Assembly (NCBI GenBank): GCA_004124875.1
Contig: SCKJ01000002.1
Span: 372,001 to 436,000 of the forward strand
Direction: 5' to 3'
DNA: 64,000 bases
Origin: Fidelibacterota bacterium
GTDB taxonomy: Bacteria > Fidelibacterota > Marinisomatia > SCGC-AAA003-L08 > TS1B11
The notes below the pieces were generated by a model. The model searched no databases, was not told the DNA's origin, and saw only the letters and a program-made list of their open reading frames with translations. Each line of letters begins with the position of its first letter. Within the stretch, counting starts at the first letter, position 1. Position numbers and translations under genes: made by a program. Shown in pieces: positions 63,480 to 64,000 of this stretch.

Positions 63480-64000
63480 TCAAGGCAGAGCCCAGAAGGA
63501 GGAAGTGAGACCCAGTCCATCAAAGGTCTGTTTTACTTCTGCAGGGGATTTTCGGCGCCAGTTCGGATCACGCCGATCCCCAGCGTACCACGCCACAGCC
63601 AGCCGCCAGCCGGTCATGATGGCTATGGACTCCCCCCGTGGTGTGTGCCATTGATCGTACCATCGGCTAACGTGCTCCTCGGAACTGAAGAACATGATCG
63701 TTCTTCAGGTAAAGACGATATCCTGCCACCAATCTCTGGCCGGCACCACGAAATGCATGATGGCTTCCGCAGGGAAGGCAGGCGCGCCACCCTTAACAGA
63801 GAGGATGACTCCCTCATTGCAATCGGCGCACGAGGTCCTGATGCGGACATCATCCCCGACCATGGCCGCGATGCCAAGAGCGTCCCACAGGCATGGCGCC
63901 CACCAAGTGTGCTGGTCCGCTGTTACGACGTATGCAGTCGGTATGGCGGAGAACGGCTGGGCCATCATGATCTCTCCGCTGGGCAGCAAGGCGAGATGAT
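63480..64000 (-). CDS. merB: Organomercurial lyase (MerB family) with selenocysteine at in-frame TGA (5' end off window)
   Basis: Visible: 172 residues including one UGA codon (63705-63707), ending TGA at 63480. MerB cleaves the C-Hg bond of organomercurials with Cys, Asp and a second Cys (Cys96, Asp99, Cys159 in R831b MerB). Here PFSAIPT leads to APCLWDALG, giving Cys and Asp as C-x2-D. The sequence then runs through TSCADCNEG to DWWQDIVFT-UGA-RTIMFFSSEEHV. The UGA falls 62 residues after the first Cys, against 63 in R831b, and homologues have Cys there. Conserved family sequence continues after it (SRWYDQWHTPRG, WYAGDRRDPNWRR, FDGLGLTSSFW). A SECIS-type hairpin follows the UGA. I read the UGA as selenocysteine; a disabled gene is the alternative. 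Confidence 0.85.
63673..63694 (-). promoter_or_regulatory. Bacterial SECIS element
   Basis: Counting from the base after UGA, nt 11-18 (UGUUCUUC) pair with nt 25-32 (GAGGAGCA): 8 bp including two G-U pairs. They enclose the loop AGUUCC (nt 19-24). The loop starts 19 nt after the UGA, inside the 16-37 nt window of bacterial SECIS elements. A G lies in the first two loop positions followed by U, as required. SelB would bind here. Confidence 0.75.

Follow-up and report, generated by a model that had tools for sequence, protein, structure and literature searches.

A MerB-family lyase gene with an in-frame UGA, predicted to encode selenocysteine, at the second catalytic cysteine column

A 64,000-nucleotide stretch of a Fidelibacterota genome (assembly GCA_004124875.1, contig SCKJ01000002.1, positions 372,001 to 436,000; hereafter, the window) ends within a gene of the organomercurial lyase (MerB) family that is broken by a single in-frame TGA at the position of the second catalytic cysteine. 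We consider it probable that this gene, which we denote Sec-MerB, encodes a MerB-family lyase in which the UGA at the Cys159 column is read as selenocysteine (Sec) and which would cleave C-Hg or other carbon-metal bonds. The first-pass annotation of this DNA had proposed that Sec replaces the catalytic Cys, and the Sec genes of the host, the recurrence of the TGA across genomes, a case of matched UAG codons and CUA anticodons, and a covarying hairpin downstream of the codon all support translation of the UGA as Sec, which, judging from the sequences, is very likely.

The interrupted gene and its catalytic columns

The features of the gene are as follows.
63480..64000, minus strand: C-terminal 172 residues and stop codon of the Sec-MerB coding region, delineated by the reading frame and the PF03243 match; the gene runs on to 64187
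63705..63707, minus strand: in-frame TGA at the MerB Cys159 column, the predicted Sec codon (U161 of 235), from hidden Markov model (HMM) alignment and codon counts
63673..63694, minus strand: predicted Sec insertion sequence (SECIS) hairpin of the window gene, with an 8-bp stem and the loop AGUUCC, divergent from the GGUC hairpin of the family
63891..63893, minus strand: TGC codon of the Cys96 equivalent (C99), from the sequence and the 3f2g alignment
63882..63884, minus strand: GAC codon of the Asp99 equivalent (D102), from the sequence and the 3f2g alignment
63828..63830, minus strand: TGC codon of the Cys117 equivalent (C120), from the sequence and the 3f2g alignment
63480..63482, minus strand: terminal stop codon TGA of the Sec-MerB gene, from the reading frame

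The start ATG lies outside the window, at window coordinate 64187 (L002:2188), and the N-terminal 63 residues are encoded outside or across the window end. The read-through piece matches PF03243 (MerB) with 104 bits (cut-off 27), the alignment spanning residues 16-138 of 173 (terminal codon counted) and model positions 1-125 of 126; on their own, the segments upstream and downstream of the TGA score 69 bits and 18 bits (E 0.0026, under the cut-off), respectively. Behind the internal TGA, 74 residues follow in frame before the stop at 63480-63482. In the HMM alignment, C96, D99, C117 and C159 of the solved MerB (3f2g) correspond to C99, D102, C120 and U161 of the window gene; the signature residues Cys96, Asp99 and Cys117 are all kept, and TGA stands where canonical MerB requires Cys at 159. 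The first-pass annotation had described a MerB-family gene broken by one in-frame TGA, continuing in the same frame past it, with the TGA at the second catalytic Cys, 62 residues after the first, and each of these points, the distance included, was borne out. A PF03243 search of the whole host genome returned the window gene, with its one internal TGA, as the sole match.

A protein search with the window gene retrieved 30 relatives of 36-99% identity (the 99% one being the protein of the window gene itself or nearly identical to it), and all 30 end at the equivalent of ...DIVFT, directly before the TGA. A scan of the GTDB species genomes, with 23 of these relatives as seeds and patterns that exclude the TGA column, found 102 relatives, and the best 80 were retained. 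The codon at the column in these best 80 of 102 loci is TGA in 77, TAG in two and TGC in one. Behind the TGA, 74 of the 77 loci keep an open frame for at least 60 residues, with the pattern KTMLLFRSEEHVDRWC...FW.L; among the remaining three, two run into contig ends and one (L096) hits a second TGA. Because the same codon is present in 77 of the 80 loci and the frame stays open for at least 60 residues in 74 of the 77, chance or base-call error is ruled out; the first-pass annotation had named reads with TGC or TGT in place of TGA as a refuting result, and the conservation of the TGA across genomes speaks against this. By record titles, the TGA carriers belong to Acidobacteria, Chloroflexi, Actinobacteria, Gemmatimonadetes, Marinimicrobia, Proteobacteria, Eremiobacterota, Thermomicrobiales, KSB1 and Desulfobacterales, a spread of about ten phylum-level groups represented mostly by metagenome-assembled genomes (MAGs).

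Some individual loci have features of their own. The second TGA of L096 (near 5475) falls on the conserved Cys of RSEEHVDRW-C, 16 codons past the Sec codon, and the frame continues behind it. Nocardioides sp. zg-1230 carries two Sec-MerB copies (L059 and L060) on different scaffolds, identical over the stretch read.

Cys/Sec alternation at the TGA column, which had been set beforehand as a check, was found: apart from the TGC locus, a profile search of the protein database, with 120 of 2200 relatives listed, showed 20 proteins with Cys at this column, along with 93 that end exactly before it, four with Trp and one each with Gly, Ser and Arg. In the tree, 16 of the 21 Cys rows form one group (support 95/100) and the rest stand apart, with many deep forks left open. 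One Cys-form protein (P0043) has its MerB domain fused to a LuxR-type helix-turn-helix domain and might be an organometal sensor. A genus mate of the host (G040) encodes a Cys-form MerB (L027), and at E 1e-15 the Sec-MerB profile finds nothing in this genome. By PF03243, the TGA form is present in only one of the 41 genomes of the host's order, and the nearest tree row to the window gene is from Chloroflexota, with weak support. Given the Cys form in the genus mate, the rarity in the order and this (weakly supported) tree neighbor, lateral gain of the window gene is possible.

Probable selenocysteine decoding

The host genome encodes all four components of the Sec pathway named in the first-pass annotation: selA (496 bits) with selB (316 bits) adjoining it, selD (369 bits) and tRNA-Sec (selC; 61.8 bits) with the anticodon TCA. 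SelB would be expected to insert Sec at the UGA in the host cell. The host selD itself carries a TGA (SHGSG-U-ACKLG), at what we take to be the usual Sec site of SelD. Across the host phylum, co-occurrence of selB and Sec-MerB is uninformative because selB is over the cut-off in 166 of the 245 genomes and the Sec-MerB clade is represented in only three, each with one TGA.

The Sec machinery was also searched in 50 genomes, for 50 of the 80 loci, the TGC locus included. selB was over the cut-off in 44 of the 50 and tRNA-Sec in 46; 42 of the 49 TGA or TAG carriers have both, and among 14 control genomes, selB and tRNA-Sec were over the cut-off in two and five, respectively. The sole TGC locus belongs to an archaeon, in the searched genome of which there is no selB over the cut-off and no tRNA-Sec match; the downstream hairpin is lost at this locus, with two of the seven pairs forming.

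The two TAG loci come from Modestobacter and Blastococcus. In both genomes, the tRNA-Sec (66.9 and 65.8 bits) has the anticodon CTA and is located less than 2 kb from selB; ARAGORN calls these tRNAs 'Pyl', by anticodon. The sister TGA carriers, Nocardioides and Sporichthyaceae, which form one subclade with the TAG species (support 99/91), have the anticodon TCA, as do 16 of the 18 tRNA-Sec loci given to ARAGORN (the host's included), the other two being CTA. This correspondence between codon and anticodon is an unusually clean natural control of Sec decoding. UAG-encoded Sec is known in Geodermatophilaceae for formate dehydrogenase, a UGSC-motif protein and AhpC (PMC5330540); the decoding of an in-frame UAG by a tRNA-Sec with a CUA anticodon is common to these genes and the present case, whereas no MerB gene was seen among the examples given there.

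Alternative genetic codes provide another potential route through the TGA. The four Trp rows (P0032, P0034, P0040, P0041) and the single Gly row (P0033) among the 120 listed proteins could suggest that the host lineage translates TGA as tryptophan or glycine, under code 4 or 25. We infer that these rows are TGA codons translated under those codes by gene callers. TGA terminates 13 of the 36 long open reading frames (ORFs) in the window, SelA, SelB, SelC and SelD are present, the column holds Cys in MerB and in the 20 Cys homologs, and TAG takes the place of TGA in the two species with tRNA-Sec(CUA), all of which makes such a reading barely conceivable.

The hairpin of the family is located at positions 16-33 counted from the codon T, with the consensus CUCUUCC-GGUC-GGAAGAG. 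Over 79 sequences (the window gene included), 92.8% of the cells pair; two-sided changes were observed in 24 cells, compared to 5.3 in shuffles (none of 500 as high), and shifting the hairpin partner lowers pairing to 46-62%. Some of the double changes alter the amino acid, such as the change of C-G to U-A in L055 that turns R into W. The GGUC loop is present in 74 of the 79 TGA or TAG loci, the window gene excluded. The hairpin of the window gene itself has 18 nt from the TGA to the loop and keeps an 8-bp stem.

Should the TGA be a real stop, the gene would yield a truncated 160-residue protein or be a pseudogene, and the downstream similarity would be a relic. The ends of the database proteins before the column (all 30 from the protein search, one of them the window's own or a near copy, and 93 of the 120 listed) and the atypical hairpin of the window gene fit this scenario. 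Nevertheless, the conserved frame behind the TGA in the 77 of 80 loci, the TAG codons precisely where tRNA-Sec reads UAG, the covarying hairpin, and the Cys homologs that read straight through the column render it highly implausible.

Several results nonetheless weigh against the reading of this gene as a Sec-dependent lyase of carbon-metal bonds, some at the level of decoding and others at that of function. The genome scan is biased to the Sec clade because every seed stops before the column, and 77 of 80 is accordingly no rate for all MerB relatives; Ser or Arg occupies the column in two of the 120 listed database proteins. Among the 49 carriers, six have only one of selB and tRNA-Sec over the cut-off, and one (G069, a 2.5-Mb MAG) has neither over it. 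In the window gene, the hairpin has no GGUC loop and is one stem pair short, and its stability is exceeded by that of a competing hairpin into which the UGA itself is folded (-12.9 kcal/mol, with 11 of 200 shuffles as stable). The published criteria for bacterial SECIS elements (bSECIS), loosely applied, are passed by 80 of 81 sequences, the TGC control among them. As for function, no neighbor family was found in more than seven of 79 loci when mechanically called neighboring ORFs were clustered (some loci being short), MerA is over the cut-off in five of 51 genomes (the host, 49 other carriers and the TGC genome), and in the host genome, MerA is not over the cut-off.

The SECIS status of the window gene rests on the family, not on its own hairpin. 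With 80 of 81 sequences passing in a permissive scan, the bSECIS criteria were rejected as a discriminator. The arms of the competing hairpin (window 63686-63707, minus strand) are UGAAGAAC/GUUCUUCA; this structure contains the Sec codon and could be regulatory.

Substrate and proposed catalytic cycle

Homology and the kept residues point to an organomercurial as the putative substrate of Sec-MerB. A possible, if unlikely, alternative is a true selenoprotein with a MerB fold and a different natural role, namely, action on another organometallic compound, cleavage of a C-X bond or metal sequestration. A mer operon, or any other conserved operon, was rejected as the context of these genes: no mer operon was seen at Sec-MerB loci, no neighbor family recurs, and MerA is found in few carriers. 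The window protein scores 40.9 bits on NF009710, the MerB equivalog model with a cut-off of 193, and NCBIfam calls the nearest Sec relative an 'organometallic lyase'. Against a different substrate, C96, D99 and C117 are kept, and the predicted fold of Sec-MerB resembles the mercury-bound structures of MerB2 and MerB; furthermore, slightly more than half of the MerB genomes in PMC8261052 also lack MerA.

During catalysis by MerB, the metal is bound by Cys96 or by Cys159, the remaining cysteine hands a proton to Asp99, and Asp99 in turn protonates the leaving group, whereupon two outside thiols take off Hg2+ (PMC4525700). An organomercurial-cleaving Sec-MerB would employ a Cys96-Asp99-Sec159 triad in the same cycle, with selenium at 159: C96 or U159 would bind the metal of R-Hg+, the other would give a proton to D99, D99 would protonate the leaving alkyl group, and Hg2+ would be bridged between S and Se until removed by thiols. 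Sec has a lower pKa and is ionized at neutral pH, and the Se-Hg bond is stronger. Because of this ionization and tighter mercury binding, Sec at 159 would favor the capture of mercury traces, and release may require extra thiol or lead to an Hg-Se product.

Predicted MerB-type selenoproteins in print and putative double-Sec relatives

Compared to MerB (R831b; PF03243, NF009710, PDB 3f0o/3f2g), the window gene is distinguished by the Sec codon at 159. The solved MerB2 (PDB 5c17) likewise has Cys at 159; Asp99, kept in the Sec-MerB family, is replaced by S in the aligned MerB2. All 35 members of the 'A2' set match PF03243 with E 0.01 or better.

The first-pass annotation knew of no established selenoprotein form of MerB; as a correction, predicted MerB-type selenoproteins are already in print. 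The inventory in PMC13188914 includes one, SaoL (NF040728, motif CU, SAO system), citing Haft & Gwadz 2023; the same SaoL representative appears in PMC9312934 under the name 'Alkylmercury lyase MerB-like protein'; and PMC7435645 lists a selenoprotein 'Organic mercuric lyase MerB2', which could be the window clade. The term MerB was not found in the main text of PMC2398784, PMC12013277 and PMC5029168.

The window gene might then simply be SaoL. We found one true SaoL (L152, 165 bits), with the read-through sequence WAASC-U-NVMNFF and U on the C159 column, so that membership in the MerB family and a predicted Sec at this column are common to both, with one SaoL aligned. However, the window protein reaches 41.5 bits on the SaoL model NF040728 (cut-off 140), and the 35 'A2' members score at most 64 on it. 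The residue before U is T in the window gene and T, N or A in all 77 TGA loci, never the C of the SaoL CU motif. SaoL is encoded in the SAO operon, whereas the window clade, spread over about ten phylum-level groups, has no recurrent neighbor; the tree, which includes one SaoL row, places it outside the clade, and its branch there is long and weakly placed. Identity with SaoL is, therefore, very unlikely, and the window clade is a second Sec159 form, with a wider spread than is visible for SaoL.

A further variant carries TGA at both catalytic cysteine columns. A search of 291 genomes from the class of the Desulfobacterales genome G071 gave 15 matches, 11 of these with internal TGA. All 11 genes (L160-L170) share the motif AA-U-A.DA, and 75 residues downstream each has F-U with a [W/R]SE stretch behind it; in each, TGA is found at both the C96 and the C159 columns and Asp99 is kept. 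Downstream of the second TGA, a hairpin of the UUCUUCU-GGUC-AGAAGAA type, with GGUC in all 11, occupies the positions of the window clade hairpin; downstream of the first TGA, there is a CUCCC..CGUG..GGGAG-type hairpin, the five outer pairs of which form in 9 to 11 of the 11 genes. The four double-Sec proteins tested score 46-56 bits on PF03243 and reach no NCBIfam cut-off. Among 104 relatives in the protein database, Trp occupies both columns in 41, the sequence stops immediately ahead of the first column in 52, six combine Cys at C96 with an end directly ahead of C159, and five show other patterns. No entry in the review table of PMC13188914 matches the double-Sec form, the literature scope here being that table and NCBIfam. 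The idea of a Sec-containing MerB is not new; new, as far as we searched in open-licence papers, are the distinct and broadly distributed clade, the use of UAG and the double-Sec variant.

We would give about an even chance to the broader proposition that selenolate organometal lyases are a widespread, overlooked class that consists of a Cys-Asp-Sec form, in about ten phyla, and a double-Sec form with a Se-Hg-Se site, and that these would provide direct Se-Hg detoxification without a mer operon. Annotation would miss such lyases because the genes are cut at the UGA; in databases, the Sec-MerB clade exists mostly as fragments that end before the Sec codon and are labelled 'hypothetical' or 'alkylmercury lyase'. 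Because of this truncation, surveys that demand Cys159, such as those using the signature of PMC8261052 (Cys96, Asp99 and Cys117, with Cys159 required), would drop the clade and could undercount the environmental potential for demethylation. With its C/C, C/U and U/U versions, a single active site offers a natural series for the role of Sec in metal-carbon chemistry. Protection by selenium against mercury is an old theme, which genetically encoded selenium on the metal, if real, would make directly testable.

Two flavoproteins of the dihydrolipoyl-dehydrogenase type also contain TGA codons, in each case at the first redox Cys, GGT-U-VNEGC. One is encoded in the host genome (L150:822-2177, minus strand; G000:C12). 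Both score 366-381 bits on MerA, below the cut-off of 454, and the second (L151:913-2292, minus strand) is encoded about 6 kb from a MerA that is over the cut-off.
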